From: an uncultured Actinomycetes bacterium
GTDB lineage: Bacteria > Actinomycetota > Acidimicrobiia > Acidimicrobiales > Microtrichaceae
Assembly: GCA_903925745.1 (NCBI GenBank)
Contig: CAIYGQ010000135.1
Location: 1-62,286 of the forward strand
Direction of reading: 5' to 3'
DNA length: 62,286 bases
Of this stretch, positions 22,327 through 57,301 are shown in pieces. The translations under genes and the position numbers were made by a program. Numbering within the stretch: the first letter of the stretch is position 1; the number at the start of each line of letters is the position of its first letter. The notes beneath the pieces are model-generated. The model ran no database searches and was not told where the DNA came from. It was given only the letters and a program-made list of their open reading frames with translations.

Positions 22327-22390
22327 CTGCTCCTGCTCCCCCCCGGTCGTCGCGCCGGCCGGTGAGTCCGGCCCACGCCCGTGCATCGTT

Positions 22391-22403
22391 AGCAAGGTTT
22401 ACT
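22391..22403. promoter_or_regulatory. Candidate ROK operator in the divergent intergenic region
   Basis: AGCAAGGTTTACT is an imperfect palindrome (four of six half-site positions pair around a central G). It lies in the only AT-rich patch between the divergent ceramidase-like and ROK genes. TACTCT or TAGGCT just downstream could serve as a -10 box, giving a nearly leaderless transcript for the GTG at 22418. It resembles the AT-rich operators of NagC/Mlc-type regulators as I remember them. Confidence 0.35.
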
Positions 22404-22417
22404 CTAGGCTCCCGCCG

Positions 22418-23731
22418 GTGGGCGACCCGGGGGACATCCAGGAACCTGCGCAGCCCGCGCTCCTGCGCGAGTTGAACGAACGGACCGTCCTCGACGTGGT
22501 CCGGCATCTCCGCAGCGTGAGCCGGGCCGAGGTCGCCCGGCGGACCGGACTGTCGAAACCGACGGTGTCACTGGCATTGAGAACGCTCGAGGCCAGCGGG
22601 CTCGTCCGGCCCGTCGGGCACGAGACCGGCCGCCCGGGCCGGGCCGGGGTGCTCTACGAGCCGATCGCCGACGCCGCGATCGCCGCCGGCGTCGAGGTCA
22701 CGGTCGGCGGCGTCCGTGCCGTCGCAGTGGACCTCGACGGCACGGTGCTCGTCGAGGCCGCCGAGCGACACGACGGGTCGACTGCGACGGCCGAGGCCAT
22801 CTTCGACTCGGTGGCCTCGTGCATCCGCTCCATGGAGCGCTGGGTCGGACGGTCGTTCTCCAGCATCGTGCTGGGTACCCCCGGTGTGGTCGACCCCGTC
22901 ACCGGCGTCCTCACCCACGTCGGCACGATCGACGCTCTCGAGGGCACGGCCCCCGCAGCCGCCATCCTGCAGCGAACCGGGCGCCCGGTCTCGGTGCTCA
23001 ACGACGTCGACCTGGTGGCGCTCGGCGAGCAGGCCGAGGGCCACGGTCGTGACGTGGACGACTTCGCCGTGCTGTGGATCGGTTCCGGCCTCGGGTCGGC
23101 CCTCGTGCTGGGCGGCCGACTCCACGTCGGTCATCACGGGATCGCCGGCGAGATCGCCGAGGTGCCCTTCGCCCGGGCGGTCCGGTCGCTGTCGGTCGGC
23201 GCCTCCGTCGACGGTCCTGAGGACGGTGCGCACGAGTTCGTCGAGCATGGTGTGGACGCGCACGGTGTGGCCGCGCTCGCCGAGCGGCTCGGTCGGCGAG
23301 CGCCTCGCGACGCCGACCACCTGGAGCTGGCGACCGGCGTACTGGACGACGCCCTGCTCCAGGGTGCGGTCGGCGCCGCCGTGCTCGCGGAACTGGCCCG
23401 GTGGACCTCGTGGTACGTGACCACCCTCGCAGCCCTGCTCGACCCCGAACTCGTCGTGCTCGCCGGGCCCATCGGATCCCACGACGCACTGCGACCCGCC
23501 GTCGAGGGTCACGTCGCCGAACAGCTCGCCGTCCCGCCCCGCCTGGAGTCGTCCAAGCTCGGCCACCGGTCGGTGCTCGCCGGCGCCGGCGCCGTCGCCC
23601 GCCGTGACGCCGCCGAGTCCGCGTTCGCAGGTCGGGTGCTCGACCGGGAGGCACAGGGTCGTGTCACCGGCCAGCCTCGGGAACCGGTCCGGCACGGGGA
23701 CCACGAGCCGCAGCGGAGGACCGGCCCATGA
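22418..23731 (+). CDS. ROK-family transcriptional regulator
   Basis: A 437-residue NagC/XylR-type regulator. The N-terminal winged helix is clear: LRELNERTVLDVVRHLRSVSRAEVARRTGLSKPTV read in pieces, ending in VSLALRTLEASGLV. The ROK sugar-binding/kinase-like domain follows with VAVDLDGTVL, VLGTPGVVDP and LNDVDLVALGE. Its ROK signature region is degenerate: the usual CxCGxxGCxE zinc motif is missing. It should sense a sugar or sugar phosphate and control the divergent arms. The GTG at 22418 is chosen because the ORF upstream would run across the promoter. Its stop overlaps the aminotransferase ATG, so repressor and pathway genes are co-translated. Confidence 0.85.
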   Translation: MGDPGDIQEPAQPALLRELNERTVLDVVRHLRSVSRAEVARRTGLSKPTVSLALRTLEASGLVRPVGHETGRPGRAGVLYEPIADAAIAAGVEVTVGGVRAVAVDLDGTVLVEAAERHDGSTATAEAIFDSVASCIRSMERWVGRSFSSIVLGTPGVVDPVTGVLTHVGTIDALEGTAPAAAILQRTGRPVSVLNDVDLVALGEQAEGHGRDVDDFAVLWIGSGLGSALVLGGRLHVGHHGIAGEIAEVPFARAVRSLSVGASVDGPEDGAHEFVEHGVDAHGVAALAERLGRRAPRDADHLELATGVLDDALLQGAVGAAVLAELARWTSWYVTTLAALLDPELVVLAGPIGSHDALRPAVEGHVAEQLAVPPRLESSKLGHRSVLAGAGAVARRDAAESAFAGRVLDREAQGRVTGQPREPVRHGDHEPQRRTGP

Positions 23732-24984
23732 GCGCCACCGTCCACGACCAACCGGCGATCCTGGGCGGGCGACCGCTCCGGTCGGACCCGTACCCGTCCT
23801 GGCCCGTCTGGGACGATCGGGAGCGGGCGCTGCTCAGCCAGGTGCTGGAGGCGGGCGGCTGGTGGGAGGGTGACGGTGACGTGGCCCGCGACTTCGCCCA
23901 GGCCTTCGCCGAGTTCCAGTCCGCCCGGTACGGCCTGGCGCTCACGAACGGGACCCACACCCTGGAGGCGGCGCTGGCCGCCTGCGACATCGGCGAGGGC
24001 GACCAGGTCATCGTGCCCGGCATCACCTTCGTCGCATCCGCGACCGCCGTCCTGGCGGTGAACGCCACCCCCGTGCTCGTCGACGTCGACCCCGAGTCGC
24101 TGTGCATCGACCCGGCGGAGGTCGAGGCCGCGATCACCCCCGCCACCCGCGCCGTCGTGGCGGTCCACGTCGCGGGCGCCGCCGCCGACCTGGACCTGCT
24201 CGTGGGGTTGTGCGAGCGGCACGGCCTGCGGCTCATCGAGGACTGTGCCCACGCGCACGGCACGACGTGGCGCGGCCGAGGTGCCGGGTCGTGGGGTGAC
24301 TTCGGCAGCTTCTCGATGCAGCGGTCCAAGCTGATGACCGCCGGCGAGGGCGGGGTGCTGGTCTGCAACGACGAGGACCTGCGCGATCGGGCCTGGTCGT
24401 ACGCCAACTGCGGTCGGGTCGCGGGCGAGTGGTTCTACCACCACCCCGGCTACGGCTCGAACCTGCGGATGACCGAGTGGCAGGGCGCCGTGCTGGCCGC
24501 CCAGCTCGAGCGCTTCCCCGAGCAGAACGCCCGCCGCAACCGGTCGGCGGTGGCGCTCGGCGAGGCCCTGTCCGGGATCGACGGACTCCGGCCGCAGCGC
24601 CGCGACGACCGGATGGGCACGCAGGGCAACTACTGCTACGTCTTCCACTACGACGCCGAGGCCTTCGCCGGGATGCCACTCCGACTCTTCGAGGCGTCGC
24701 TCGCCGCCGAGGGGATCCCGATGGGGGTCTCGTATCCGAGTCTGAGTGATCTGGCCCTGTTCCGCGAACGGAACTTCGGACCCCGCCTCCGATCGTCGGC
24801 CCCGACGATCGACTACGCGGCGGTGCGGCTCCCGGTGGCGGAGCGGGCCGCAGCCACGACGGTCTGGCTGGAGCACCGGCTGCTCCTCGCCGACGTCGAC
24901 GACGTCCTCGACGTCGCCCGCGCGGCGTCGAGGATCCAGCAGGGTGCACCAGCGATCGTCGCACAACGAGGAGGGGACCAGTGA
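23728..24984 (+). CDS. DegT/DnrJ/EryC1/StrS-family aminotransferase
   Basis: A 418-residue PLP enzyme of the sugar aminotransferase family. The Schiff-base lysine is Lys201 in SMQRSKLMTAGEGG. LTNGTHTLEAAL forms the phosphate-binding region, and LIEDCAHAHGT carries the PLP-contacting Asp. Relatives aminate or deaminate keto sugars and inososes with Glu or Gln. It is the second gene of a catabolic operon with sugar import and glycosidases, so it may run toward deamination of an amino sugar. The ATG overlaps the regulator stop as ATGA, and its stop overlaps the binding-protein GTG as GTGA. The exact sugar is unknown. Confidence 0.88.
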   Translation: MSATVHDQPAILGGRPLRSDPYPSWPVWDDRERALLSQVLEAGGWWEGDGDVARDFAQAFAEFQSARYGLALTNGTHTLEAALAACDIGEGDQVIVPGITFVASATAVLAVNATPVLVDVDPESLCIDPAEVEAAITPATRAVVAVHVAGAAADLDLLVGLCERHGLRLIEDCAHAHGTTWRGRGAGSWGDFGSFSMQRSKLMTAGEGGVLVCNDEDLRDRAWSYANCGRVAGEWFYHHPGYGSNLRMTEWQGAVLAAQLERFPEQNARRNRSAVALGEALSGIDGLRPQRRDDRMGTQGNYCYVFHYDAEAFAGMPLRLFEASLAAEGIPMGVSYPSLSDLALFRERNFGPRLRSSAPTIDYAAVRLPVAERAAATTVWLEHRLLLADVDDVLDVARAASRIQQGAPAIVAQRGGDQ

Positions 24985-26390
24985 CTCCGACCATCCGCAC
25001 GAACCCGACCCGGCGGGGGGTGCGCCGGTTGGCCGCCATGGCCGTCGCCGCCGTCGCGCTCGCCACCGCGTGCAGCGGTGGTGAATCGGCACAGGACACC
25101 TCGACGACGGTGGCGCCCACCACGGTCCCTCCGGAACAGCGCGCCCCGGTGACCCTGCAGTTCTGGTCGAGCTTCACCGACCAGGTGTCCGTCGACGCGT
25201 TCAGGCCGATCATCGAGCGCTGCCAGCAGGACAACCCCTGGCTGACGATCGAGTACGTCGCCAAGGACGACATGGCGAACGCCGTGACGGCGGCGGCTGA
25301 GGCCAACACGCTGCCCGACGTGATCCAGGCCGATTTCGCCGGCGGGTTGGCCAAGCTGCAGGCGTCGGGCGCCGTGCTCGCGCTCGACGAGTTCGCGAAC
25401 CGCGACGGCTTCGACTGGAACCAGTTCACCCCCGGCGCCCAGCGCCTCGTCACCTTCGACGACCAGAAGTGGGGGCTGCCGTTGTCACTCGACACCGCTG
25501 CGCTGTTCTACAACGGCGACGTGCTCGCCGAGGCCGGCGTGCCCGTGCCGGAGACCTTCGCCGACATCGAGGCCGCAGCCGACGAGCTCATCCAGCGCGG
25601 TCCCGACGGGTCGCTCCAGCGCATCGGCTGGGTACCCGACGTGGGCGACGGATCCTCGGTGATCCCCCTCGGCCTGCTGTCCGGGGGAAAGCTCTTCAGC
25701 GAGGACGGCAAGGAGGTCCTGATCGGCGACGACACCACCTGGGCCGAATCGTTCCGGCTCCAGAAGCGGTTCTTCGAGCGGCTCGGGCCACCCGAGGACG
25801 CGGCCAGGTTCCGGGGTTCGCTCGGCGCCTACGACTCCTCGCAGAACTTCTTCATCACCGGCCAGGTGCCGCTCTACACCGAGCTGTCGTACTTCACGAC
25901 CTGGCCGAGCCGGTTCGGCGAGGGGAAGCCGGCCGACTGGGGCGTCGTCCCGATGCCCTCACCAGCGGGCACCGCCGGCGAGGTCGCGCTCATCGCGTCG
26001 GGCAACAGTTTCTTCCTGCCCGCCCGCCCGGCCGCGGGTGACCCGGAGGCGTCCTGGATCGCCGCCCGCTGCATGGCGACCGCCGCCCAGCAGATCGCCG
26101 ACTTCGAGGTCGTCCAGGGCAACATCCCGGCCAACGTGGAGGCGCTGGGGATCTTCGAGGAGATCGAGGCCACGCGTGTGCCCGAGTACCAGACGTTCAT
26201 CGACCTGGCGCGCTCGCCCGACGCGACCGTGCCCGGCAACTCCGTCGTGATCGAGGCGGCGACCGACGAGCTGGTCGCACTGGCGCTGCGCTACCGCGCC
26301 GGACAGATCCCTGACGACCAGCTGCAGGCAGAGATCGAGACGCTCGACGCCCGGCTCCAGGACGAGCTGGACCTCGAGACCGGGGGCTGA
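24981..26390 (+). CDS. ABC sugar transporter substrate-binding lipoprotein
   Basis: A 469-residue extracellular solute-binding protein (family 1). The signal peptide ends in VALATAC (lipidated Cys about residue 32), followed by a Ser/Thr linker and the start of the binding fold, VTLQFWSSFTDQ. Aromatic-rich stretches such as FDWNQFTPGAQR and FFITGQVPLYTELSYF suit carbohydrate binding. It delivers an oligosaccharide to the two permeases encoded immediately downstream. GTGA overlap with the aminotransferase; the stop is directly adjacent to the next GTG. Confidence 0.9.
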   Translation: MTPTIRTNPTRRGVRRLAAMAVAAVALATACSGGESAQDTSTTVAPTTVPPEQRAPVTLQFWSSFTDQVSVDAFRPIIERCQQDNPWLTIEYVAKDDMANAVTAAAEANTLPDVIQADFAGGLAKLQASGAVLALDEFANRDGFDWNQFTPGAQRLVTFDDQKWGLPLSLDTAALFYNGDVLAEAGVPVPETFADIEAAADELIQRGPDGSLQRIGWVPDVGDGSSVIPLGLLSGGKLFSEDGKEVLIGDDTTWAESFRLQKRFFERLGPPEDAARFRGSLGAYDSSQNFFITGQVPLYTELSYFTTWPSRFGEGKPADWGVVPMPSPAGTAGEVALIASGNSFFLPARPAAGDPEASWIAARCMATAAQQIADFEVVQGNIPANVEALGIFEEIEATRVPEYQTFIDLARSPDATVPGNSVVIEAATDELVALALRYRAGQIPDDQLQAEIETLDARLQDELDLETGG

Positions 26391-27398
26391 GTGGTCCAGG
26401 CGGCCCCACCCGCCCCGGTGCCGAGTTCCGCACCGGGAGCCGACCGCGTCCGCACCGACCGGACGGAACCACCGGAACGACTCCGGGAGAAGCGGCGCGC
26501 CGACCGGCGGCGTCGCCTGACGGTCCTGGCCTTCCTCTCGCCGTGGATCATCGGCTTCCTGGTCTTCACCCTGTATCCGATCGTGAACTCCCTCTACTGG
26601 TCGTTCACCGTGAAGCGCTACGGGACTCCAGCCCGCTGGGTGGGGCTCGCGAACTACGAGTTGTTGTTCACCAACGACGACCTGCTCACATCGCTCGGCA
26701 ACACCGCCTACCTGGCCATCTTCGGGATGCCCGTCCGGATCGGGATCGCCCTGCTGGCCGCGTCCCTGCTCGTCCGACCCCGCCGCGGCAACGGCGTGTA
26801 CCGCGTCATGTTCTACGTTCCCTCGATCGTTCCGGCCGTCGCCAGCGGCGCGCTCTTCTTCTTCCTCCTCAAGGAGGGCGGTCCGCTGTCCGGACTGTTC
26901 AACCTGTTCGGGGCCGAGGCGCCGCTGTGGTTCCAGGATCCCCGTTGGGCCAAGCCTGCGCTCATCATGGTTGGCACCTGGGCGCTCGGCGACCTGATGC
27001 TGATCCTGCTCGCCGGCCTGGTCGACATCCCCACCAGCCTCTACGAGGCGGCTGAGCTCGACGGGGCCGGACGCTGGGCCCGCTTCCGGCACGTCACGCT
27101 GCCGATGATCAGCCCCGTCATCTTCTTCGTCGTCCTCACCGGGCTCATCGGCGTCCTGCAGAGCTTCGACCAGGCCTACGTGTTCAGCCAGGGCGCACGT
27201 GAGGGTCGGCTCACGGGAGAGCCGGGTGGATCGTTGCTCACCTACGCCATGCTGCAGCTCCGGCTCTTCCAGGATGGCCGGATCGGGTTCGCCTCGGCCA
27301 TGGCGTGGGTCATGTTCCTCATCACGTTCGTGATCACGATGATCATGCTGGCGACGCGTCGCCGGTGGGTCCACACCGCCAACGAGGAGTGGGCGTGA
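26391..27398 (+). CDS. ABC sugar transporter permease (MalF type)
   Basis: A 335-residue inner-membrane permease with about six helices after a polar, Arg-rich N-terminal tail. The EAA loop that contacts the ATPase is YEAAELDGAGRWARFRHVTLP. The length fits the shorter MalF-like permeases of sugar importers. The GTG at 26391 follows the TGA of the binding protein without a gap, and its own stop overlaps the second permease as GTGA. Confidence 0.9.
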   Translation: MVQAAPPAPVPSSAPGADRVRTDRTEPPERLREKRRADRRRRLTVLAFLSPWIIGFLVFTLYPIVNSLYWSFTVKRYGTPARWVGLANYELLFTNDDLLTSLGNTAYLAIFGMPVRIGIALLAASLLVRPRRGNGVYRVMFYVPSIVPAVASGALFFFLLKEGGPLSGLFNLFGAEAPLWFQDPRWAKPALIMVGTWALGDLMLILLAGLVDIPTSLYEAAELDGAGRWARFRHVTLPMISPVIFFVVLTGLIGVLQSFDQAYVFSQGAREGRLTGEPGGSLLTYAMLQLRLFQDGRIGFASAMAWVMFLITFVITMIMLATRRRWVHTANEEWA

Positions 27399-28228
27399 GC
27401 CGGTCCCGCCGCCTGCTCGGCGTCGTGGGGCGCCACTCGGTCCTGATCGGGCTGGCCGTCATCTTCGCCCTGCCGTTCTTCTTCATGCTGCTGCAGTCCG
27501 TCACGCCGATCGCGGAGGCGAAGACGTCCGTGCTGTGGCCGTCGTCGTTCGACCTGGGCAACTACGCGGAGGTCTTCGACCGGGTCCCGCTGGCGCGCTA
27601 CATCCGGAACACCCTCCTGGTGTGCGCCCTCGTCGTCACGGGAACGATCGTGAGCTGCGTCCCCGTCGCCTACGCGTTCAGCCACCTCCGGTGGCGCGGG
27701 CGCGGCGTCGTGTTCGTGCTGGTGCTCTCCACGATGATGCTGCCCTTCCAGGTCCTGTTCGTCAGCCAGTACGAGATCTTCTCGAACCTCGGCTGGCTGA
27801 ACACGATCCTTCCGCTCGTCGTGCCGTCCTTCTTCGCCGACGCGTTCAGCATCTTCCTGCTCCGCCAGTTCTTCCTGACCCTGCCCGCCGAGACACTGGA
27901 CGCCGCCCGCGCCGACGGTGCGAGCGAGTTCCAGGTGCTCACGCGCATCGTCGTCCCGATGGCCAAGCCGGGGATCATGGCGGTCGCGATCTTCCAGTTC
28001 CTGTTCGCCTGGAGCGACTTCTTCGGGCCGAACATCTACCTGTCCGACGAGGAGAACCTGACGCTGGCGGTCGGCCTGGTGCGACTCAACACCGCGGCGG
28101 CGCGACTGGGTGAGTCCAACCTGACGATGGCCGCCTCGGTCATCTTCGTCATGCCGCTGATCGTGGTCTTCTTCTTCGCCCAGAAGGTCTTCATCGAGGG
28201 CGTGACCCTGACGGGCACGAAGGGCTAG
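27395..28228 (+). CDS. ABC sugar transporter permease (MalG type)
   Basis: A 277-residue permease with six predicted helices. The EAA loop is LDAARADGASEFQVLTRI, followed by VVPMAKPGIMAV. It forms the channel with the preceding permease. The GTG at 27395 overlaps that gene's stop. The matching ATPase is not next to it but probably the MsmK/UgpC-like protein at the end of the same gene run (37832). A 5-bp gap separates it from the first glycosidase gene. Confidence 0.9.
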   Translation: MSRSRRLLGVVGRHSVLIGLAVIFALPFFFMLLQSVTPIAEAKTSVLWPSSFDLGNYAEVFDRVPLARYIRNTLLVCALVVTGTIVSCVPVAYAFSHLRWRGRGVVFVLVLSTMMLPFQVLFVSQYEIFSNLGWLNTILPLVVPSFFADAFSIFLLRQFFLTLPAETLDAARADGASEFQVLTRIVVPMAKPGIMAVAIFQFLFAWSDFFGPNIYLSDEENLTLAVGLVRLNTAAARLGESNLTMAASVIFVMPLIVVFFFAQKVFIEGVTLTGTKG

Positions 28229-28233
28229 GACGC

Positions 28234-30693
28234 ATGGCCCCCCCGGCATTTCCGGCCCACCCGGCCCTCCCGGCTGACACGATTCGGGCGGTCGAGGTCC
28301 AGTACTACCGGATCCCCCGGGAGCGCTGGGAGCTCATGCTGCTCCGCGCCGTGCAGTCCGGCGCCAACGCCGTGTCCACCTACATCCCCTGGATCCACCA
28401 TGCGCCTGCGCCCGACGTGGTGGACCTCACCGGCGTCACGGCCCCTGAACGGGACCTGGTCGGCTTCGTGGAGCGCTGCGAGGCGATCGGGCTCGGGTTC
28501 ATCGCCAAGCCGGGACCCTTCTGCGACTCCGAGATGATCGGCGGCGGTGTGCCCACCTGGCTGATCGAGTCCCACCCCGACTGGTGGGCCGTCCGCCACG
28601 ACGGTCGCCCCCACCGGCACGGCGACTCCGACGACCCCCGCCTGGGCTACGACCACCCTGGCGCCGTTGCGGCGTCGTGTGACTGGATCCGGTCGGTGGG
28701 CACGGCGCTGGAGCCGTTCGCCGGCACCGGCGGCCGGCCCGGAACCCTGTGGGCGGTGCAGGTCGACAACGAGGCGCCCGGCGACGGCATGTGGATCCAC
28801 GAGGACGGTGCCGCCCCGTCGCCGATCCGCGCCGACCTGGCCGACGTCGACCGGTGGCGCTCGTTCCTGTTCGGGCGCCACGGCGACGTCGACACGCTCA
28901 ACCGGGCATGGGGCACCGGTTACTCGAGCCTCGACGAGGTGGCGTTCCCGGGGCCGTGGGAGCCGCCCGGATCGGTGGAGGCCCTGCGGCCGTGGATCGA
29001 CCTGGACCGCTTCGCCGACCACCAGGTCGCCGTCGGGCTCGGGGCGTACGCCGCTGCCGTGCGGGACGTCCTCGGCGACCGGGTGCCGCTGTTCCACGAC
29101 CTCCTCTGCATGCCGTGGCCGCTCGCAGGGATGCTGATCGACCCGACGGTGCTCGCCGACACCTGCGGATGGGTCGGCCAGAACGTCTACGCCGAGGGCG
29201 TCGATCCGGAGCGCATGATCGCCGGCACCGCCTGGTACCGGATGGACGAGGACGAGTACGTCCACCACGCGTGGTGGAGGACCCGGCTCTGCCACACGCT
29301 GTCGCCCGCCGGCCTCCCGCACCTGGTTCCCGAGATCTCGGCCCGACAGGCGTTCTACCTGCAGTGCTCGCTCGTCGGCGGCATGGACGCGCCGTGCATC
29401 TACGTGTTGCACTCCTCCGAACCCGAGCCCGTCGGCATCGGCGCGTTCCAGCGCTGGGCCGAGGAGGCGCCGGTGCTGGGGGACGGCAACGTGTTCGAGT
29501 GGTGGTGGAACCTGCGTTGCCTGTTCCTCTGCCTCACCGCTGGCGGCGCCGACCTGGCGGCCAGCCCGCTCGAGGCGCCGGTGGCGATCGTGACCGACCA
29601 CGCCGGTGAGCGCGTCGCACGGTGGTCGGGTTCCATCCCCGGGGCCGGCTGGCCGACGGCGTCGCCGCTCGCCGAGGTGGCCTCGGCCTCGAACACCTCC
29701 GCAGCGGGACTCCGCGTGGCGCGTCGGCTCGTCGACGCCGGCGTCCCCTTCGACGTCGTCACCGCCGACCGGGATGACCTGGATGGCTACGAGGTCGTGA
29801 TCGTCCCCGACACGCGCGTGCTCAGCCGGGCTGCGCACGCACGGCTCGCAGCGCTGGCCGCCGCCCACCCCGGCCGGGTCGTGCTGGACGGAGTGGCGCC
29901 CGAACTGGACGAGGACCTCCGTCCGCTCGGCCCGCTCGACGCGCCGGGGGGCCTGCAGGTCGACCGGCTCCCGGGCCGCCGGGACACCCCGGACGGGGTC
30001 GACGTCGGCATCCGGACGGGACCGTCGGGCCGTCGCTACGTCACGGTCGTGAACCGGACCGGCGACCGCGTGGAGCTGCGGGCCGACGGCGTGGAGGTGG
30101 CCGCCGGGGCGGCGTCGGTGACCTGGTTCGCGCACGACGCCGGTGCGGTCGTCGCAGCGCTGCTCCACGGCGAGGACGCCGCGGTCGGACCCGTCAGTTC
30201 GTCCCAGGGGCAGGTCGCCGTCGCGCTCCTCGGATCCGGGCCGGACGGATCGGGGGACCCCGTCTGGCACGTGATGGCCGACGAGCGGACCCGGGTTGCC
30301 CTGCCGGATGTGGCCGGGTCGCAGGCCGCCCGCGTCACCCTGGCCGGGGCGGTGTCCGACTCCGAACCGCTCGGAGCGGACGGACGGGTGCGGATCGTGA
30401 CGCTGGACGACGCAGGCCGCACCGACCGGTACCTGGTCGGCCCGGCCGGGGCCGTGCGGTCCGTGGCCGACGAGCTCGCCGGCGTGGTGACGGCGTACAT
30501 CCTCGACGCACTCGAGCGCGTCGAGGCCGAGGCCGCCGCGCTCGGACTGGCCGGCGCCGAGGTCGTCGACCGGATCCGCCGGATCCGCAGCGCCCGGGTG
30601 GCGGGCACCGCGACCGCAGAGGACCTCCGGCTGCTCGACCGGCTCACCCCGATCGCCGTGCGCGCCAACGACATCCGCCTGGGGGTGTCGTGA
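28234..30693 (+). CDS. Beta-galactosidase-like glycoside hydrolase (GH35/GH42 type)
   Basis: An 819-residue cytoplasmic glycosidase. The N-terminal barrel opens with VEVQYYRIPRERWEL and ANAVSTYIPWIHHAP, typical of GH35 (compare the usual Y-F-R-x-P-x-x-W and N-x-x-x-T-Y-x-x-W). The likely acid/base is Glu180 in AVQVDNEAPG and the likely nucleophile is Glu367 in LVPEISARQA. A later Rossmann-like region (DLDGYEVVIVPDTRVLSRAA, about 510-560) resembles the trimerisation domain of GH42, so it mixes features of both families. There is no signal peptide, consistent with intracellular hydrolysis of an imported oligosaccharide. It overlaps the GH2 gene as GTGA. Confidence 0.8.
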   Translation: MAPPAFPAHPALPADTIRAVEVQYYRIPRERWELMLLRAVQSGANAVSTYIPWIHHAPAPDVVDLTGVTAPERDLVGFVERCEAIGLGFIAKPGPFCDSEMIGGGVPTWLIESHPDWWAVRHDGRPHRHGDSDDPRLGYDHPGAVAASCDWIRSVGTALEPFAGTGGRPGTLWAVQVDNEAPGDGMWIHEDGAAPSPIRADLADVDRWRSFLFGRHGDVDTLNRAWGTGYSSLDEVAFPGPWEPPGSVEALRPWIDLDRFADHQVAVGLGAYAAAVRDVLGDRVPLFHDLLCMPWPLAGMLIDPTVLADTCGWVGQNVYAEGVDPERMIAGTAWYRMDEDEYVHHAWWRTRLCHTLSPAGLPHLVPEISARQAFYLQCSLVGGMDAPCIYVLHSSEPEPVGIGAFQRWAEEAPVLGDGNVFEWWWNLRCLFLCLTAGGADLAASPLEAPVAIVTDHAGERVARWSGSIPGAGWPTASPLAEVASASNTSAAGLRVARRLVDAGVPFDVVTADRDDLDGYEVVIVPDTRVLSRAAHARLAALAAAHPGRVVLDGVAPELDEDLRPLGPLDAPGGLQVDRLPGRRDTPDGVDVGIRTGPSGRRYVTVVNRTGDRVELRADGVEVAAGAASVTWFAHDAGAVVAALLHGEDAAVGPVSSSQGQVAVALLGSGPDGSGDPVWHVMADERTRVALPDVAGSQAARVTLAGAVSDSEPLGADGRVRIVTLDDAGRTDRYLVGPAGAVRSVADELAGVVTAYILDALERVEAEAAALGLAGAEVVDRIRRIRSARVAGTATAEDLRLLDRLTPIAVRANDIRLGVS

Positions 30694-32852: not shown

Positions 32853-33874
32853 GCCTGCGCATCGCCGTCCTCGGCTACGGGTTCATCGCTGACCTGCACA
32901 CGCGGGCCGCGCGGGCCGCCGGTGCGACCGTCATCTCGGTGACCGGTCACCGGCCCGAGCGGGCGCTGGACTTCGCCCGGCGCCACGGCATCGGCCGGGC
33001 CGGCGACGACTGGGAGTCGGCCGTCGCTGCATCCGACGTCGACGCGGTCGTGGTCGGCACGCCCAACTCCCTGCACCACCCGCAGGCGCTCGCCGCGATC
33101 GCCGCCGGCAAGCACGTGCTGGTCGACAAGCCGATGGCGCTCGACACCCGACAGGCCGTGGAGATGTGCGATGCCGCCCGGGCTGCCGGTGTGACGATGT
33201 GTGTCGGTCACATGTGGCGCTACCGCGACGAGGTCGTGGCGTTGCGGGACCGGATCGCGGCCGGTGGGCTGGGCCGGGTGGTGCGCACCCGCGGCTACGG
33301 CGTGCACGCCGGCTGGGGTCCCTCGGGCTGGTTCCGGGATTACGACCTGTCCGGAGGCGGGGCGTTGATCGACATGGGCATCCACGCCATCGACACCGCC
33401 CGGTTCCTGCTCGGCGACCCGACCGCCGACCGGGTCGTGGCGTCGGTGGGGACGGGATTCGACGACCCCGCCGCCTCTCCGTCGGGTGACCCGCGCATCG
33501 ACACCGATGCGGTCGTGCTCGTCGACTGGTCCGACGGGGTGCGCAGCGTGGTCGAGTCGGGGTGGTGGCAGCCGGTCCTCGACGGTGTCGAGGCCGAGAC
33601 CGAGGTGTACGCGACGGGCGGTCACGCCCGGATCTGGCCGGCGTTCACCGCGGCGACACCGCCGCCGGCGGACTACGACCACTGTGCGCTCGACATGTAC
33701 GCGGCGCAGATGGCCGACTTCGTGGCGTGTTGCGCCACCGGCCGCACCCCGGTGGCCTCCGCCGAGGTCGGCCTGGAGGCGGTCCGGATCGTCGAGGCGG
33801 CCTACTCCTCGGCTGCTGCGTACCCGGCCCGACCGCAGGGTCCTGCGCCGAGTGGGGAGGGAACGGCATCGTGA
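32849..33874 (+). CDS. Gfo/Idh/MocA-family oxidoreductase
   Basis: A 341-residue NAD(P)-dependent sugar or inositol dehydrogenase. The Rossmann start is IAVLGYGFIADLHTRAAR, and the family motif E-K-P is seen as VDKPMALDT (Asp instead of Glu). The catalytic region contains GGGALIDMGIHAID, with the usual D-x-G-x-H. It probably oxidises or epimerises a sugar through a keto intermediate. In the same operon as a DegT-type aminotransferase it could supply or use a 3-keto sugar. GTGA overlaps on both sides. Confidence 0.88.
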   Translation: MSLRIAVLGYGFIADLHTRAARAAGATVISVTGHRPERALDFARRHGIGRAGDDWESAVAASDVDAVVVGTPNSLHHPQALAAIAAGKHVLVDKPMALDTRQAVEMCDAARAAGVTMCVGHMWRYRDEVVALRDRIAAGGLGRVVRTRGYGVHAGWGPSGWFRDYDLSGGGALIDMGIHAIDTARFLLGDPTADRVVASVGTGFDDPAASPSGDPRIDTDAVVLVDWSDGVRSVVESGWWQPVLDGVEAETEVYATGGHARIWPAFTAATPPPADYDHCALDMYAAQMADFVACCATGRTPVASAEVGLEAVRIVEAAYSSAAAYPARPQGPAPSGEGTAS

Positions 33875-35151
33875 AGGTCTCGGTGGTCGGCGGAGGTTCG
33901 ACCTACACACCCGAGCTCGTCGACGGGCTCCTGCGGCGCCGTGCCGAGCTCGACCTGGACGAGGTCGCCCTCGTCGACGTCGATGGGGACCGGCTCGCCG
34001 TCCTGGGGCCGCTCGCCACCCGCATGGCCGAGCGCGCCGCCCCCGGGGTGCGCGTCACCTGGGGGACCGACCTGGCGGCGGGCGTGCGCGATGCCGGATA
34101 CGTGGTCAGCCAGATCCGCGTCGGGGGCATGGCCGCCCGGGAACGTGACGAGCAGCTCGGCCGGGAGTTCGGCCTCGTCGGCCAGGAGACCGTCGGCGTG
34201 GGCGGGTTCGCAAACGCCCTGCGCACCATTCCCGTCGCCCTGCGGATCTCGGAGGTGGTCGACGACGAGGCGCCGGACGCGACCCTGTTCAACTTCACCA
34301 ACCCCGCCGGCCTGGTGACCGAGGCGCTGTGTCGTCACGGGCACGTGCCGACCGTCGGGCTGTGCAACGTGCCGTGGTCCACACAGGCCGAGATCGCGAA
34401 GGCCTTCGGTGTGACGCCCCAGGAGGTGGACCTGGACACGGTCGGGCTCAACCACCTCACCTGGACCCGACGAGTGGAGGTCGCAGGCGAGGACCGGACC
34501 GCCGAGGTGCTCACGGCGCTGCGCGGCCTGGTCGGCAAGCAGCTCTCCTCGGATGGTGAGCCCGAGTGGACCCGCGACACGATCGGGTTGATCGGTGCGA
34601 TCCCGAACTACTACCTCCTCTACTACTACGAGACCGATGCGTGGATCCGGCACCAGGCGACGCACCCGACGCGGGCCGCCGAGGTGGCCGCCATCGAGGC
34701 GGAACTGCTCGTGAAGTATGCGGACCCCGAGCTGGCCGAGAAACCGGCCGAGCTGGACCAACGCGGCGGTGCGTACTACTCCGAGGCGGCGGCCGCACTC
34801 ATGGCCGACATGGCGACCGATGCCGGCACCGTCCACGTGGTCAACGCGGAGAACCGGGGCGCGATCCCCGGGCTGCCGGACGACGTCGTCGTCGAGACCG
34901 CGGCGGTGGTGACCCGGCACGGTCCGGTGCCGCGTCCGACCGCACCGCTGCGGCCCGACGTCGAGGCGCTGGTGCGGACCATGAAGGCGGTCGAGCTGCT
35001 CACCGTGCAGGCGGCCGTCGACGGTGACGAGGAGGCGGCCCGTCTGGCGCTCCTGACCCACCCGCTCGGTCCACCCGCCCACCGGGTGGACGCGGTGTGG
35101 GAGCGGCTGCGCGAGGTCAACGCCGGGCTGTTGGGGTCACTCGATGGCTGA
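33871..35151 (+). CDS. Glycoside hydrolase family 4 (NAD- and metal-dependent, 6-phospho-beta-glucosidase-like)
   Basis: A 426-residue GH4 enzyme, which cleaves glycosides by an oxidation-elimination mechanism using NAD+ and a divalent metal. The dinucleotide start is VSVVGGGSTYTPEL. The signature NFTNPAGLVTEAL and the metal ligands Cys165 (VGLCNVPWS) and His195 (GLNHLTW) are intact. IGAIPNYYLLYYY is typical of the 6-phospho-beta-glucosidase branch. No PTS genes are visible, so if it needs phosphorylated substrate the downstream BadF-type kinase may provide it. GTGA overlap with the upstream gene; an 8-bp overlap with the kinase gene. Confidence 0.9.
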   Translation: MKVSVVGGGSTYTPELVDGLLRRRAELDLDEVALVDVDGDRLAVLGPLATRMAERAAPGVRVTWGTDLAAGVRDAGYVVSQIRVGGMAARERDEQLGREFGLVGQETVGVGGFANALRTIPVALRISEVVDDEAPDATLFNFTNPAGLVTEALCRHGHVPTVGLCNVPWSTQAEIAKAFGVTPQEVDLDTVGLNHLTWTRRVEVAGEDRTAEVLTALRGLVGKQLSSDGEPEWTRDTIGLIGAIPNYYLLYYYETDAWIRHQATHPTRAAEVAAIEAELLVKYADPELAEKPAELDQRGGAYYSEAAAALMADMATDAGTVHVVNAENRGAIPGLPDDVVVETAAVVTRHGPVPRPTAPLRPDVEALVRTMKAVELLTVQAAVDGDEEAARLALLTHPLGPPAHRVDAVWERLREVNAGLLGSLDG

Positions 35152-36127
35152 CGCGCCCGACGACGGGGTCGTGGTCGGGATCGACGGCGGTGGGACCAAG
35201 ACCGACGTGCTCGTCCTCGGCGTCGACGCCACGGTCCTGGGTCGGGCGGCCGGCGGCGGTGCCAACTGGGAGGGCATCGGCGTCGAGGCGGTCGGGGCGG
35301 TGCTCGACGAGCTGCTCGGCCACGCGCTCGACCGGGCGGGTGCCGGTCGGGACGACGTGCTCGCCTGGGCGTGCTGCCTGGCCGGTGTGGACTGGCCGTC
35401 GGATCCGGCGCGGCTCGACCCGGTGCTCGACGCCCTGGGTGTGGGCGGGGCGCGTCTCCTGTCGAACGACGCGTTCGCCGCCCTCCGGGCCGGCACGTCC
35501 GGGGGCGTCGGGTGCGTGTCGATCGCCGGGACGGGCGGGGTGTGCGCCGGGCGTGACCGATCCGGCCGCACGGCGCGCACCATGGGCGTCGGCATGGGGG
35601 AGGGGTCGGGTGCATGGAGCCTGGTCGGACGGGCGCTCGACGCCGTGGCCGCCGCCCACCACCACTCCGGTCCACCGACCGAGCTCAGCGACCGGTTCAC
35701 CGCAGCGGCGGGGGTCGGCGACGTGCCCGCCCTGTTCGAGGGGGTGACCCGGGGCTCGGTCCACGTGGGCGCCGACCTGGCCGGCGCCGTGCTCGCCGCT
35801 GCGGCCGACGGCGACCCGGTCGCGGTCCAGGTGGCCACCGCGGTCGGCGACCAGCACGGCCGTGACCTGGCGGGACTGGCGGACCGCCTCGGACTCACCG
35901 ACGAGCCGCTCGAGGTCGTGACGGCCGGCGGCGTCCACGTCCACGGCGACGGGGCGTTCCGTGACGCGTTCCGCGCCGCGGTCCTGGATCGGGTGCCCGC
36001 CGCGGGATTCCACCCGTTGGAGGCCCCGCCCGTCGTCGGTGCCGCGCTCCTGGCCCTGGAGGCGGCCGGGCTCCCGGGCGAGCCGGTCCGGGCGGATCTC
36101 CTGCGCGTCGTCGGGAGCGGATCGTGA
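35144..36127 (+). CDS. BadF/BadG/BcrA-type sugar kinase (N-acetylglucosamine kinase-like)
   Basis: A 327-residue ASKHA-fold ATPase. Phosphate motif 1 is GIDGGGTKTDVLV, phosphate motif 2 is SIAGTGGVCAG, and GEGSGAWSLVGRAL matches the sugar-kinase variant of the family, in which GlcNAc kinase is the best-known member. VVTAGGVHVHGDGAF forms the adenosine region. It should phosphorylate the amino sugar or hexose released by the neighbouring hydrolases. The ATG at 35144 lies 8 bp before the GH4 stop. The downstream gene overlaps as GTGA. Confidence 0.82.
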   Translation: MADAPDDGVVVGIDGGGTKTDVLVLGVDATVLGRAAGGGANWEGIGVEAVGAVLDELLGHALDRAGAGRDDVLAWACCLAGVDWPSDPARLDPVLDALGVGGARLLSNDAFAALRAGTSGGVGCVSIAGTGGVCAGRDRSGRTARTMGVGMGEGSGAWSLVGRALDAVAAAHHHSGPPTELSDRFTAAAGVGDVPALFEGVTRGSVHVGADLAGAVLAAAADGDPVAVQVATAVGDQHGRDLAGLADRLGLTDEPLEVVTAGGVHVHGDGAFRDAFRAAVLDRVPAAGFHPLEAPPVVGAALLALEAAGLPGEPVRADLLRVVGSGS

Positions 36128-37830
36128 CGTCACTGTGCCCGGCGCCGCGGTGGGCGAGCTGGTCCGACGACGGACCCGAGCCGGAACCCCCCCCGCATCC
36201 CGAGGCGTACCGCCTCGCGGTCCGCGGCGGCGCCGCCGCCATCACCGCATCGAGTGAGCTCGGCGGGTTCCGGGCGGCGACCACGCTCGAGCAGCTCCGC
36301 CGGTCCGGGCCGGTCGACGACCTGACGATCGTCGACTGGCCCGAGTTCGACCGTCGCGCGGTCCTGTTGGACGTCGCACGGGGACGGGTGCCGACCATCG
36401 ACGAACTCGCCACCGCCTTCGGTCGCTTCGCCGAGCTGAAGTACACCCACGTGCTGATGAACCTGGAGGCGAGCTTCGACCACCCGGGTCTCGAGCAGGT
36501 CTGTCGCCCGCACGACCCCTACACCGTCGACGACGTCCGCCGGCTCGTCGAGCTGGCCCGTGGGTGCCACCTGGAGCTCGTGCCGGTGCAGGCCTCGCTC
36601 GGACACCTGGAGCACTTCCTGGCGCACCCCGACCTGGCCCACCTGGCGGCGCTGCCCGGCGGCTACCGGACCCCTGACGGTTCGGGGCACGAACCGCCCG
36701 CCTGCCTGGACCCGGACCAGCGCCAGTCCTTCGAGCTCGCCGCTGAGCTGGTGGCCAACGTGGCCCGGGCGTTCGATCCCTCTGTGGTGCACGTCGGCAT
36801 GGACGAGCCGATCGACCTCAACCCTGCCGTGTGGGACGCGATCTTCGACGTGCCCGGGGCGCCGGTCCCATGGGCCGAGGTCGACGGCGGCGGGTTCTGC
36901 ACGCCACTGCCGGCGGACCGGGTGGGCGACTACGCGGGGTGGATCACCCGGCTGTGCTCCCTGCCCGAGCTCACCGACCGGGAGGTCATGATGTGGGGTG
37001 ACGTCGTGGCGCCGCATCCCGACCTGCTCGACGCGATCCCACCCCGGGTCACCCTGGTCGAGTGGGGCTACGAGGCCGGGCACCCCTTCGACGCCCGGCT
37101 CAGCCGAATCACCGAGGCCGGCCGCCGCTGCTGGGTGGCGGCCGGCACCTCCGGCTGGTCGTCGATCTCGGGTCGGACCACCAACATGTCGGCCAACGTG
37201 CGGGAGGCCGTGGCGGCGGCGCAACGGCACGGGGCCGAGGGAGTCGCGGTCACCAGCTGGGAGGTGCTGCCGTCCGTCTCCGACTGGCCCGGGTTCGTGT
37301 GGGCCGCGTCCCTGGCCTGGAATCCCGACCGGCCCGTCGATCCGGCCGCCGCGCTCGACCTGGTCGTCGCCCGAGGATCGGGACTGGGTGAGGTCTGGAT
37401 GCTCCTCGGCGGCGTCCACGACCACGTGGTGCCGGGCACCCCCGAGACGGGGGCCGTCTCCGAGATGTTCCGCACCGGCGGATGGGCGGCGGTGGGCCTG
37501 GCGCTCCGTGGGCTCCGGCGAGAGTCGCTGGACCGGGTCACCGAGGACCTGGACGCGGCCGGTCGCCGGCTGGACGGGGCGACCACGGGGGCGGTCGACG
37601 GTCCGATCCTGCGCGACGAGCTCCGCTGGGTCCGCGACGCGCTCCGGTGGGGCGTCGCAGCGGCTCGGTTCCGTCTGGAGTGGCCCGATCCGTTGGCCAG
37701 CCCGGGCTGGTTGATGCCCGAGCACGAACGACTCGTGGCCGAGCACGCCCGCCTCTGGCGGCTCCGGAACCGCCACGGGGGTTACGACCGGGTCGCCGCC
37801 GGCCTGGTCGCCACACGAGGAGGTCTCTGA
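36124..37830 (+). CDS. GH20-like beta-N-acetylhexosaminidase (cytoplasmic)
   Basis: A 568-residue protein with a GH20-like barrel. The conserved Asp-Glu pair appears as VVHVGMDEP (Asp227 and Glu228), matching the H-x-G-x-D-E motif. Upstream, FDRRAVLLDVARGRVPTI and ELKYTHVLMNLEASF match the G-x-x-L-D-x-x-R and K-x-N-x-L motifs. EWGYEAGHPF and VAAGTSGWSS hold likely substrate contacts. The N-terminal domain found in many GH20 enzymes is short, and there is no signal peptide. A catalytic pair plus operon context supports exo-hydrolysis of terminal HexNAc inside the cell. It ends 1 bp before the ATPase gene. Confidence 0.78.
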   Translation: MTSLCPAPRWASWSDDGPEPEPPPHPEAYRLAVRGGAAAITASSELGGFRAATTLEQLRRSGPVDDLTIVDWPEFDRRAVLLDVARGRVPTIDELATAFGRFAELKYTHVLMNLEASFDHPGLEQVCRPHDPYTVDDVRRLVELARGCHLELVPVQASLGHLEHFLAHPDLAHLAALPGGYRTPDGSGHEPPACLDPDQRQSFELAAELVANVARAFDPSVVHVGMDEPIDLNPAVWDAIFDVPGAPVPWAEVDGGGFCTPLPADRVGDYAGWITRLCSLPELTDREVMMWGDVVAPHPDLLDAIPPRVTLVEWGYEAGHPFDARLSRITEAGRRCWVAAGTSGWSSISGRTTNMSANVREAVAAAQRHGAEGVAVTSWEVLPSVSDWPGFVWAASLAWNPDRPVDPAAALDLVVARGSGLGEVWMLLGGVHDHVVPGTPETGAVSEMFRTGGWAAVGLALRGLRRESLDRVTEDLDAAGRRLDGATTGAVDGPILRDELRWVRDALRWGVAAARFRLEWPDPLASPGWLMPEHERLVAEHARLWRLRNRHGGYDRVAAGLVATRGGL

Positions 37831-37831
37831 G

Positions 37832-38998
37832 GTGGCATCCATCACGCTGGACCACGTGTCCAAGGTGTTCGACCAGGATGGCCGGGGCCGCGGACAGCGA
37901 ACGCTCGCCGTCGACGACGTGCACCTCGAGATCGCGGACGGCGAGTTCCTGGTCCTGGTCGGGCCGTCCGGGTGCGGCAAGTCGACGCTCCTGCGGATCA
38001 TCGCCGGCCTGGAGCGGGCGACCGAGGGCGGGGTGTACCTGGGCGACCGGGACATCACCTACGTGCCGCCGCGGGATCGGAACCTGGCCATGGTGTTCCA
38101 GAACTACGCGCTCTACCCGCACATGACCGTGCGACGGAACCTGGCGTTCAGCCTGCGACTCCGCAAGGCGCCGAAGGCCCAGATCGACGCGACGGTGGAC
38201 CGGGTCGCCTCGATGCTCGGCCTCGAGGAACTGCTCGACCGGAAGCCGGGGCAGCTGTCGGGCGGCCAACGCCAACGAGTCGCCATGGGTCGCGCGCTGG
38301 TGCGAGAGCCCGCCGCGTTCCTGATGGACGAGCCGCTGTCGAACCTGGACGCCAAGCTCCGCGTCACGATGCGGGCGGAGCTCGCCGACCTGCACCAGCG
38401 GACCGGGACCACCACGGTCTACGTCACCCACGACCAGATCGAGGCGATGACGCTCGGGCACCGGGTGGCGGTGCTGCGCAACGGTGTGCTCCAGCAGTGC
38501 GACTCGCCCCCGGTCCTGTTCCACCGTCCGGCCAACCTCTTCTGCGCCACCTTCATCGGATCGCCCGAGATGAACCTGGTGGGCGCGTCGCTGCGCAGCG
38601 GCGTGGCCGAGTTCGCCGGGGTCCGACTCCCCATCGGGTCCGCTGCGCCCGCCGGTCCCGACCGCGACTGGGTGCTCGGTGTCCGCCCGACGGACCTGGT
38701 GCTGCCGGTGGGTGCTCCCGGTGCCCCGACGATCCCGGCGCGCATCGACCTGGTCGAGCACCTGGGTGCGCAGGTGCACGTCACGTTCTCCCTGGACGCC
38801 CCGCCGGTCCACCCGGACGTGACCAGCGAGGACGAGGAACTCGAGGTGGCGGCGACGCGCAGCGACCGCGCGGTCTGGACCGCGGAACTGCCCGACGGCA
38901 CGGGCGTCGCCGTGGGCGATGAACTGGACCTGGCGATCGTCGTGGAGCGCCTGCACTGGTTCGATCCGGTGACCGGCGAGCGCGCCGCCGGGGTGTGA
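37832..38998 (+). CDS. Sugar ABC transporter ATPase (MsmK/UgpC/MalK type)
   Basis: A 388-residue ABC ATPase with the MalK-type C-terminal regulatory domain. Walker A is GPSGCGKST, the Q-loop is VFQNYALYPHMT, the signature is LSGGQRQRVAMGRAL, Walker B is AAFLMDEPLSNLD and the switch His is VTHDQIEAM. The C-terminal OB-like domain begins near LFCATFIGSPEMN. It probably energises the two permeases encoded in the same gene run, so the importer is complete within one gene set. GTG at 37832 with AGGAGG upstream at about 37818-37823. Its 3' end is included in a short tandem repeat. Confidence 0.9.
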   Translation: MASITLDHVSKVFDQDGRGRGQRTLAVDDVHLEIADGEFLVLVGPSGCGKSTLLRIIAGLERATEGGVYLGDRDITYVPPRDRNLAMVFQNYALYPHMTVRRNLAFSLRLRKAPKAQIDATVDRVASMLGLEELLDRKPGQLSGGQRQRVAMGRALVREPAAFLMDEPLSNLDAKLRVTMRAELADLHQRTGTTTVYVTHDQIEAMTLGHRVAVLRNGVLQQCDSPPVLFHRPANLFCATFIGSPEMNLVGASLRSGVAEFAGVRLPIGSAAPAGPDRDWVLGVRPTDLVLPVGAPGAPTIPARIDLVEHLGAQVHVTFSLDAPPVHPDVTSEDEELEVAATRSDRAVWTAELPDGTGVAVGDELDLAIVVERLHWFDPVTGERAAGV

Positions 38999-39042
38999 CG
39001 GCGAGCGCGCCGCCGGGGTGTGACGGCGAGCGCGCCGTCAGC
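38975..39042. repeat. 25-bp tandem repeat spanning a stop codon
   Basis: A 25-bp unit beginning GGCGAGCGCGCC occurs at 38975-38999 and 39000-39024 without differences, and its first 12 bases recur at 39025. The first copy holds the last codons and stop of the ATPase gene; the third runs into the end of the convergent protease gene. It looks like a recent slippage duplication. Confidence 0.85.
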
Positions 39043-42589: not shown

Positions 42590-42674
42590 CTGACTCCCCC
42601 CGGCCGGTTCGCCCCGGCCCGGCCGGTGCGCCACCGGCCCTGTCGATCCCGGGCGGCGTACCGCCCAGAGGCTC

Positions 42675-42703
42675 AGGGTAAAGGTTCCTGACAGTCCTGT
42701 CAC
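42675..42703 (-). promoter_or_regulatory. Promoter with overlapping palindromic operator upstream of the protease gene
   Basis: On the minus strand, GTGACA (42698-42703) and TACCCT (42675-42680) are 17 bp apart, as in a sigma-70-type promoter. A perfect palindrome TGACAG-TC-CTGTCA (42689-42702) covers the -35 box and part of the spacer, which would allow repression. The protease start codon is about 80 bases downstream of the expected transcription start. Confidence 0.5.
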
Positions 42704-57300: not shown

Positions 57301-57301
57301 G

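Follow-up and report, generated by a model that had tools for sequence, protein, structure and literature searches.

A conserved divergent gene cluster from an uncultured actinomycete, built on the csnREFGHK layout with an added DegT aminotransferase and Gfo/Idh oxidoreductase and predicted to break down amino-sugar oligosaccharides

Contig CAIYGQ010000135.1 of an uncultured Actinomycetes bacterium of the Microtrichaceae (assembly GCA_903925745.1), analysed over 62,286 nucleotides (the window), carries a gene cluster that we interpret as a system for the import and breakdown of amino-sugar oligosaccharides. Its larger part is a run of twelve genes, all on the + strand (22418-38998), with successive junctions of -4, -4, 0, -4, +5, -4, -4, -4, -8, -4 and +1 bp; the tight same-strand packing described in a first-pass annotation of this DNA is thus borne out, neighbours overlapping by 4-8 bp or lying no more than 5 bp apart. 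Third-position GC lies between 0.88 and 0.97 in every one of the twelve, as expected for true frames in GC-rich DNA. There are no Rfam matches between 15000 and 43000, and a simple scan gave no terminator 3' of the operon.

Families were assigned by Pfam and NCBIfam profile searches, and Pfam agrees with the list given earlier (ROK, DegT, a full ATP-binding cassette (ABC) importer with its ATPase, four glycoside hydrolase (GH) families, Gfo/Idh/MocA and an N-acetylglucosamine (GlcNAc)-kinase-like enzyme), GH2 and the GH20 catalytic domain falling just below cut-off. The first predicted product is a ROK-family regulator of the CsnR/NagC type with helix-turn-helix (HTH) and ROK domains (22418-23731; PF00480, 95 bits, plus HTH matches; 34% identical to the ROK protein of a csn-type cluster in genome G438), followed by a DegT/DnrJ/EryC1/StrS aminotransferase (DegT; 23728-24984; PF01041, 297 bits). 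Then come an ABC sugar-binding lipoprotein (SBP; 24981-26390; PF01547/PF13416; nearest solved relative MBP1, 4r9f), ABC permeases 1 and 2 (26391-27398 and 27395-28228; both PF00528), a GH35/GH42-like exo-glycosidase (GH35L; 28234-30693; PF01301, PF02449), a beta-mannosidase-like GH2 protein (30690-32852; 19.9 bits against a Pfam cut-off of 21, with NCBIfam and PDB matches in support), a Gfo/Idh/MocA oxidoreductase (Gfo/Idh; 32849-33874; PF01408, PF22725), a GH4 protein of the Cys-Asn-motif 6-phospho-beta-glycosidase type, an NAD-dependent family (33871-35151; PF02056/PF11975), a BadF-family sugar kinase (35144-36127; PF01869), a GcnA/GH20C-like GH20 exo-beta-N-acetylhexosaminidase (36124-37830; domain 2 just over and catalytic domain just under the Pfam cut-off, with support from a fold search) and a MalK/UgpC-type ABC ATPase (37832-38998; PF00005, OB_MalK; PRK11650, 419 bits with the cut-off at 432). 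Inspection of the N-termini, together with a simple scan for hydrophobicity, found a lipoprotein-type signal on the SBP only; no enzyme of the twelve looks secreted, so digestion would be cytoplasmic as previously proposed, and the earlier reading of one operon for amino-sugar or glycan catabolism is likewise supported. On the opposite strand a large subtilase-like protein with FG-GAP repeats (39038-42703) ends 39 bp from the operon, and adjoins the cluster also in G030 and G028.

The unit is larger than the first-pass annotation allowed, which confined it to 22418-38998 and missed a conserved divergent arm on the - strand (18064-22326). This arm faces the operon across 91 bp and has internal overlaps of 4 and 14 bp. 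Its first gene (21085-22326, taking the ATG at 22326 as the start; a longer version of the frame would begin at 22395) encodes a neutral-ceramidase-like amidase with a profile match to neutral ceramidase 2zws (E 5.8e-8, spanning about 150 residues) and no Pfam family at E <= 0.01. The HTHHGPDG, CHPE, GE and Y positions are invariant in seven rows and include residues that we take to be zinc ligands; a plasmid search with the window protein at E 1e-10 found nothing. The second gene encodes a PIG-L/LmbE-type N-deacetylase (20234-21088; PF02585, 67 bits), with LnmX, diacetylchitobiose deacetylase and MshB as nearest solved relatives, and the last a lipoprotein of unknown family (18064-20247; no Pfam or NCBIfam match), possibly linked to the pathway. 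Both amidases are present in all eight clusters with the left arm on the contig (the window, G030, G027, G029, G028, G002, L030 and L035), and the lipoprotein in seven of the eight, once only as a fragment at the stretch edge. Six of the eight, the window and G029 not among them, also have NagB on the same strand as the arm; the G030 NagB scores 251 bits where its best NCBIfam model requires 326. Beside the arm, on the + strand, lies a secreted lipoprotein (15937-18030) with a lipobox-like N-terminus and a weak GH42-like domain (PF02449, E 0.0018, below cut-off), a candidate surface enzyme that may be linked to the pathway; a counterpart occurs in 6 of 10 window-type clusters compared, and several of the remaining stretches do not reach its position.

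Between the two arms there is a palindromic operator-like site, GTTAGCAAGGTTTAC, at 22388-22402. Its consensus, GTWAGYAWNNYTTAC followed by TCTAGRCTC, is kept in all six clusters in which the ROK gene and the arm are both present. Of seven genomes searched, six have a single copy of the 24-base pattern, at the arm junction; as the pattern was derived from those same six sites, its informative part is that no second site occurs in a genome. The seventh, G031, has no copy, and the GH35L search there also found nothing. L030 and L035, which have no ROK gene on their stretch, do not match the 15-base core, and in G217 (ROK 49% identical) the core lies not in front of the ROK gene but at about 3089-3103, between ROK and DegT. 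We therefore read the locus as a putatively ROK-regulated, divergently transcribed cluster, with this site as a candidate ROK-type operator.

The first-pass annotation had staked its reading on conserved gene order in relatives, and the order, compared as far as contigs reach, is conserved. Orthologues of GH35L have the same neighbours in four of the five other species of the genus, in one further genus of the family and in one further family of the class, the latter lacking GH2, and the same order recurs on three further contigs of metagenome-assembled genomes (MAGs), one of them partial and one with many frame breaks. GH20 is present in 6/6 window-type clusters; GH2 is absent in G217 and present in all eight others whose contig covers its position. 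The cluster is rare: counted by GH35L, with the window's own genome included, it is found in 6 of the family's 33 genomes, in 6 of 395 for the class (including a distant match of 31%) and in 3 of 396 for the phylum. Named records with the cluster are MAGs, two of them called Acidimicrobiales, and isolate names suggest lake water as the habitat. One carrier, L030 (CAMAQM010000012.1; GH35L 64%), is a MAG titled Bifidobacterium breve, a label that is probably wrong because its DegT groups with the window clade in the tree. Frame changes split many genes in L035 and the DegT gene in L080, and may be assembly errors. Two further GH35L matches were set aside: a Klebsiella plasmid (H1) with an unrelated neighbourhood, and a different GH35-like gene of G356 (28-31%) beside SIS- and kinase-like open reading frames, named from reading of the frames only.

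The core of the operon is not new. The csnREFGHK operon of Streptomyces, described for chitosan oligosaccharides (PMC6097792; also PMC5635096), comprises a ROK repressor, CsnR (PMC3048496), an ABC transporter, a GH4 enzyme and a putative kinase, and the CsnR box has the consensus AGGAAANTTTCCT (PMC6097792). ROK, SBP, two permeases, GH4 and kinase occur together in the window cluster as in this layout. G438, a genome of 9.2 Mb, has ROK-SBP-permease-permease-GH4-BadF with the box AGGAAACTTTCCT; a second exact box lies away from this cluster (G438:C1:603473-603485), perhaps at a chitosanase gene. Five f67 genomes with DegT (G423, G514, G473, G621 and G533) have the exact box twice each, 10/10 of these inside the cluster, and a reversed-box control gave no matches. 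In the window the nearest to such a box is one site with two mismatches, far off at 57301. The window permeases are 41-53% identical to those of G423 and G438 and the SBP 24-26%; the kinase is 41% identical to the BadF protein beside Gfo/Idh in G423, 34% to the G438 kinase and 27% to the csnK-like BadF of G423. We thus read the f67 clusters as csn-type regulons extended by DegT and Gfo/Idh, and the window clade as a derived branch with its own operator-like site, a diverged SBP and added glycosidases. As it has no CsnR box, we count the window cluster as a derived csn variant, not as a member. The earlier statement that no described pathway has this set of genes does not hold for the core, and stands, as far as the literature searched shows, for the added DegT and Gfo/Idh genes.

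Such a descent invites the view that the cluster serves ordinary catabolism of chitin or chitosan oligosaccharides, taking up glucosamine (GlcN) and GlcNAc oligomers, with DegT and Gfo/Idh acting on a minor by-product or at C2. The shared csnREFGHK core, the exact boxes retained in the five f67 clusters and the report that (GlcN)2 has the strongest in vitro effect on CsnR binding (PMC6097792) all agree with it. The window glycosidases do not. Archaeal GlmA requires Asp178 before its acid/base Glu179, the D178N variant being inactive (PMC6566704), whereas GH35L, which aligns with archaeal GlmA/beta-galactosidases mainly over the N-terminal third, has Asn179-Glu180 at this place (invariant, as is Glu367, in nine rows); GlmA-type chitosan digestion by GH35L is rejected on this position. 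The GH2 exo-glucosaminidase CsxA uses Asp469 as acid/base (quoted in PMC6566704), whereas the window GH2 has beta-mannosidases as nearest solved relatives, its Asn-Glu aligning with that of 2vjx along with a SEYGAQ stretch, and a CsxA-type activity is likewise rejected. No GH18 chitinase was found in seven of seven window-clade genomes, one of them 66% complete (GH19 and GH46 were not searched for), and both SBP and operator have diverged. On balance we regard the chitosan explanation as unlikely, if by no means negligible. With GH35L lacking the GlmA Asp and GH2 closest to beta-mannosidases, the oligosaccharide probably also contains neutral hexoses; the substrate proposed in the first-pass annotation, an imported amino-sugar oligosaccharide, is retained for its amino-sugar part and amended accordingly.

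The remaining carbohydrate-active proteins fit their families. The GH20 protein has an invariant Asp227-Glu228 (five rows), presumably the catalytic pair; its AlphaFold model (mean confidence, pLDDT, 76.8) has GcnA and GH20C as best fold matches over near full length (for GcnA VIA Z 29.9, root-mean-square deviation 3.1, 465 aligned). The GH35L model (mean pLDDT 57.9) was too poor and was not used for fold search. GH4 is nearest to solved 6-phospho-beta-glucosidases (best E 8e-86) and has Cys165-Asn166 and His195 invariant in 12 rows, a motif that, with the domain matches, we take to mark the 6-phospho-beta type. The BadF kinase is nearest to a solved kinase of N-acetylmuramic acid (MurNAc) and GlcNAc (E 1.9e-32). 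GH20 relatives were also seen on two plasmids: in Halomontanus rarus (L040:14749-18166; 28%) one adjoins a ceramidase-like gene near sulfatase and Gfo/Idh genes, and in Thermomicrobium roseum (L041:11101-18719) one lies beside BadF, MurQ, NagA and anhydro-MurNAc kinase, a peptidoglycan-recycling setting.

What appears new at the locus is the pairing of DegT with Gfo/Idh, which the first-pass annotation did not single out. The nearest solved relatives of DegT are (2-deoxy-)scyllo-inosose aminotransferases and the 3-amino-5-hydroxybenzoate (AHBA) synthase RifK, with a KLMTAGEGG stretch in common with 1b9h, and those of Gfo/Idh are 1,5-anhydrofructose reductase and DgpA. These relatives raise the alternative of aminocyclitol glycoside catabolism, in which an amino-inositol linked to an amino sugar would be degraded by an inositol-type dehydrogenase (Gfo/Idh) and a scyllo-inosose-type aminotransferase (DegT). 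The inosose aminotransferases among the best solved DegT matches point this way, as do the best NCBIfam match of Gfo/Idh (inositol 2-dehydrogenase, far under cut-off), the membership of MshB in the PIG-L family and a 68% identical DegT relative whose gene overlaps an aminoglycoside 3-N-acetyltransferase gene. However, the cluster families include no further inositol catabolism genes, the Gfo family scores do not discriminate, and the window GH4 is of the beta-phospho type whereas GlcN-inositol is alpha-linked, and we consider an aminocyclitol substrate quite improbable.

RifK in complex with the oxidoreductase RifL is reported to aminate UDP-3-keto-glucose, and NtdA with NtdC to aminate 3-oxo-glucose-6-phosphate (PMC8788734); GH4 cleavage is itself described as running via C3 oxidation and a C3 ketone (PMC7676230). 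Both characterised pairs are biosynthetic (PMC8788734), and the window pair could in principle aminate as well, part of the cluster then making an amino sugar instead of degrading one. We give this very little credence, as the pair is surrounded by an importer, glycosidases and deacetylases, with no glycosyltransferase or exporter among the twelve genes and the arm, and as six of eight window-type clusters have NagB and 7 of the 19 distant DegT neighbourhoods a SIS deaminase. With NagB or SIS handling the C2 amine, a second amine would be the simplest job for DegT. The DegT/Gfo pair therefore likely runs the reverse of the known C3 amination, the C3 position, the direction and the substrate all being predicted from relatives and context. 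Titles and abstract openings of open-licence papers yielded no description of a DegT, GH4 and BadF cluster, and none of kanosamine catabolism.

To separate core from additions we used a DegT profile built from the window clade only, which at E <= 1e-85 gave 21 places, spread over 20 of the 396 genomes of the phylum; all 21 were inspected, and 19 lie outside the window genus. Several stretches stop at contig ends, and the presences given here are lower bounds. Among the 19, GH4 was seen at 11, Gfo/Idh at 12 (three weak, 32-37%), BadF at 9, a SIS deaminase at 7 and a polysaccharide deacetylase at 6, with a second BadF beside Gfo/Idh in G423, G504, G456, G524 and G640. The GH4 in the G504 stretch is a 33% paralogue, a closer one lying at another contig end. 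Of GH2, GH20 and GH35L, only GH35L was seen among distant clusters, and once (G621, 37%). The four glycosidase families grouped as one set in the first-pass annotation therefore come apart: GH4 belongs to the core and the others are additions, GH2 and GH20 occurring only in window-type clusters.

GH4 and DegT tend to occur in the same genomes, less decisively than the p values suggest. At E <= 1e-180 for GH4, a cut set once a gap in the list had been noticed, DegT is present in 13 of 16 genomes and in 7 of the 380 others (Fisher p 5e-17); 8 of the 16 had fed the GH4 model, and without those eight DegT is present in 5/8 against 7/380 (p 6e-7). The genomes are related, and both p values overstate independence. 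Three further close-GH4 neighbourhoods lie in genomes without DegT at threshold: in G640 a split DegT occupies the expected position, the short G553 contig shows none, and G660 is taken up below. On a Chloroflexota plasmid GH4 (46%) adjoins BadF (32%), with DegT (41%) 2-3 kb off. In a DegT tree of 39 rows the GH4-associated rows fall in two well-supported clades, one also with G437 and the other sitting with G607, both within a single moderately supported branch (89/89) together with G432 and G599. The distant SIS proteins match the isomerase half of GlmS and, more weakly, NagB-II and GlmD, and the distant deacetylases match PdaB and NodB models, in each case under NCBIfam and over Pfam cut-offs; in many distant clusters the two may replace NagB and the PIG-L/ceramidase-like amidases in function. 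A SIS search in the window clade gave no match, not even GlmS, and has no discriminating value.

Several more remote DegT neighbourhoods are recorded as observations. In G607 the 68% identical DegT gene overlaps an aminoglycoside 3-N-acetyltransferase family gene (L061:8698-10730; PF02522, 268 bits), and the pair adjoins a FAD oxidoreductase, the rest of the cluster not being in the stretch. Of the haloarchaeal records with DegT relatives, the seven inspected have a ceramidase-like gene near DegT in four, PIG-L in three and Gfo/Idh in six, which is at most suggestive. The ceramidase-like genes on haloarchaeal plasmids L053, L056, L057 and L059 are near DegT relatives of about 38-41% identity, and in L059 a gene annotated as hypothetical that adjoins DegT matches the window amidase (E 1.2e-7). 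L076 (G623) has ceramidase-like (30%) and NagB-like (38%) genes within about 9 kb in its DegT neighbourhood, and no GH4.

Taken together, the observed gene content, conservation, co-localisation, operator-like site and families lead us to favour, with a probability of about 0.58, a ROK-regulated cluster derived from csnREFGHK that imports a short amino-sugar oligosaccharide and dismantles it in the cytoplasm, with a second amine removed by DegT and Gfo/Idh; its catalytic steps, the DegT/Gfo direction and the substrate would be as follows. The SBP, permeases and ATPase would bring the oligosaccharide in, GH20, GH2 and GH35L would take off terminal N-acetylhexosamine and neutral beta-hexoses, and the PIG-L and ceramidase-like amidases would cut N-acyl groups. 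The BadF kinase would phosphorylate the amino sugar or disaccharide, and GH4 would split the phospho-beta-glycoside by its NAD-dependent, C3-oxidising mechanism. GlcN-6-phosphate would go to fructose-6-phosphate through NagB (in six of the eight clusters, not the window) or another deaminase. DegT would transaminate the second amine, which most likely sits at C3, to give a ketone, and Gfo/Idh would reduce this to an alcohol, the reverse of RifL/RifK or NtdC/NtdA. A narrower version, with the odds against it, is a pathway, so far undescribed, for the catabolism of a sugar with a 3-amino group or two amino groups (e.g. a 2,3-diamino-2,3-dideoxyhexose in a heteroglycan), in which DegT and Gfo/Idh would run the C3 amination familiar from antibiotic synthesis in reverse and supply GH4, all three enzymes cooperating at C3.

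Several findings weigh against the favoured scheme. 1,5-Anhydrofructose reductase, the top relative of Gfo/Idh, reduces a C2 ketone, and C2 chemistry is thus possible for the pair. With Asn at the place of the GlmA Asp, GH35L is unlikely to bind GlcN at its -1 site and probably takes a sugar that has a hydroxyl at C2. For the deaminase step, the sole PF01182 protein found in the window genome and in G029 looks, by eye, like 6-phosphogluconolactonase. The window genome (G000) and six relatives lack an exact CsnR box, and together with an SBP only about 25% identical to the csn-type one this means that the ligand may differ widely. GH4 is absent from 8 of the 19 distant DegT places (8 of 21 overall), G660 has a GH4/SIS/BadF core without DegT in the usual place, and at E <= 1e-60 GH4 is found in 54 of 396 genomes, 17 of the 54 with DegT and 37 without it at E <= 1e-85.

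The cluster is nevertheless real, conserved, larger than described before and built on a known system. If the favoured scheme is right, environmental bacteria have a dedicated breakdown route for 3-amino or diamino sugars, compounds described chiefly from antibiotics and from glycans of the bacterial surface, and the presence of DegT beside GH4, BadF and Gfo/Idh would be enough to recognise it. In that case csn would represent a single branch within a broader family of operons for amino-oligosaccharides. Clear targets are the SBP, for finding the ligand, and DegT together with Gfo/Idh, for a coupled assay.

Among known systems, the chb operon of enterobacteria shares with the window a GH4 enzyme and a deacetylase for an amino disaccharide; the window differs in having a kinase and an ABC importer (no phosphotransferase system transporter was found by Pfam among the twelve genes and the arm) and PIG-L instead of a ChbG-type deacetylase. 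Streptococcal GcnA and GH20C are the best full-length fold matches of the GH20 protein, at 15-17% identity among the matches listed. The archaeal GlmA/Dac chitin route, as described in PMC6566704, likewise combines a GH35-type enzyme with a PIG-L (Dac-type) deacetylase, whereas GlmA has Asp-Glu where GH35L has Asn-Glu and the likeness spans mainly the N-terminal third. The kanosamine pairs RifK/RifL and NtdA/NtdC (PMC8788734) also join a pyridoxal phosphate-dependent aminotransferase to an oxidoreductase, and the window DegT is close to RifK, but they make 3-amino sugars and the window pair lies in a catabolic setting. The csnREFGHK operon is alike in its ROK repressor at the head, SBP with two permeases, GH4 and sugar kinase, and to these the window cluster adds its own ATPase, DegT, Gfo/Idh, GH35L, GH2, GH20 and the PIG-L and ceramidase-like amidases.

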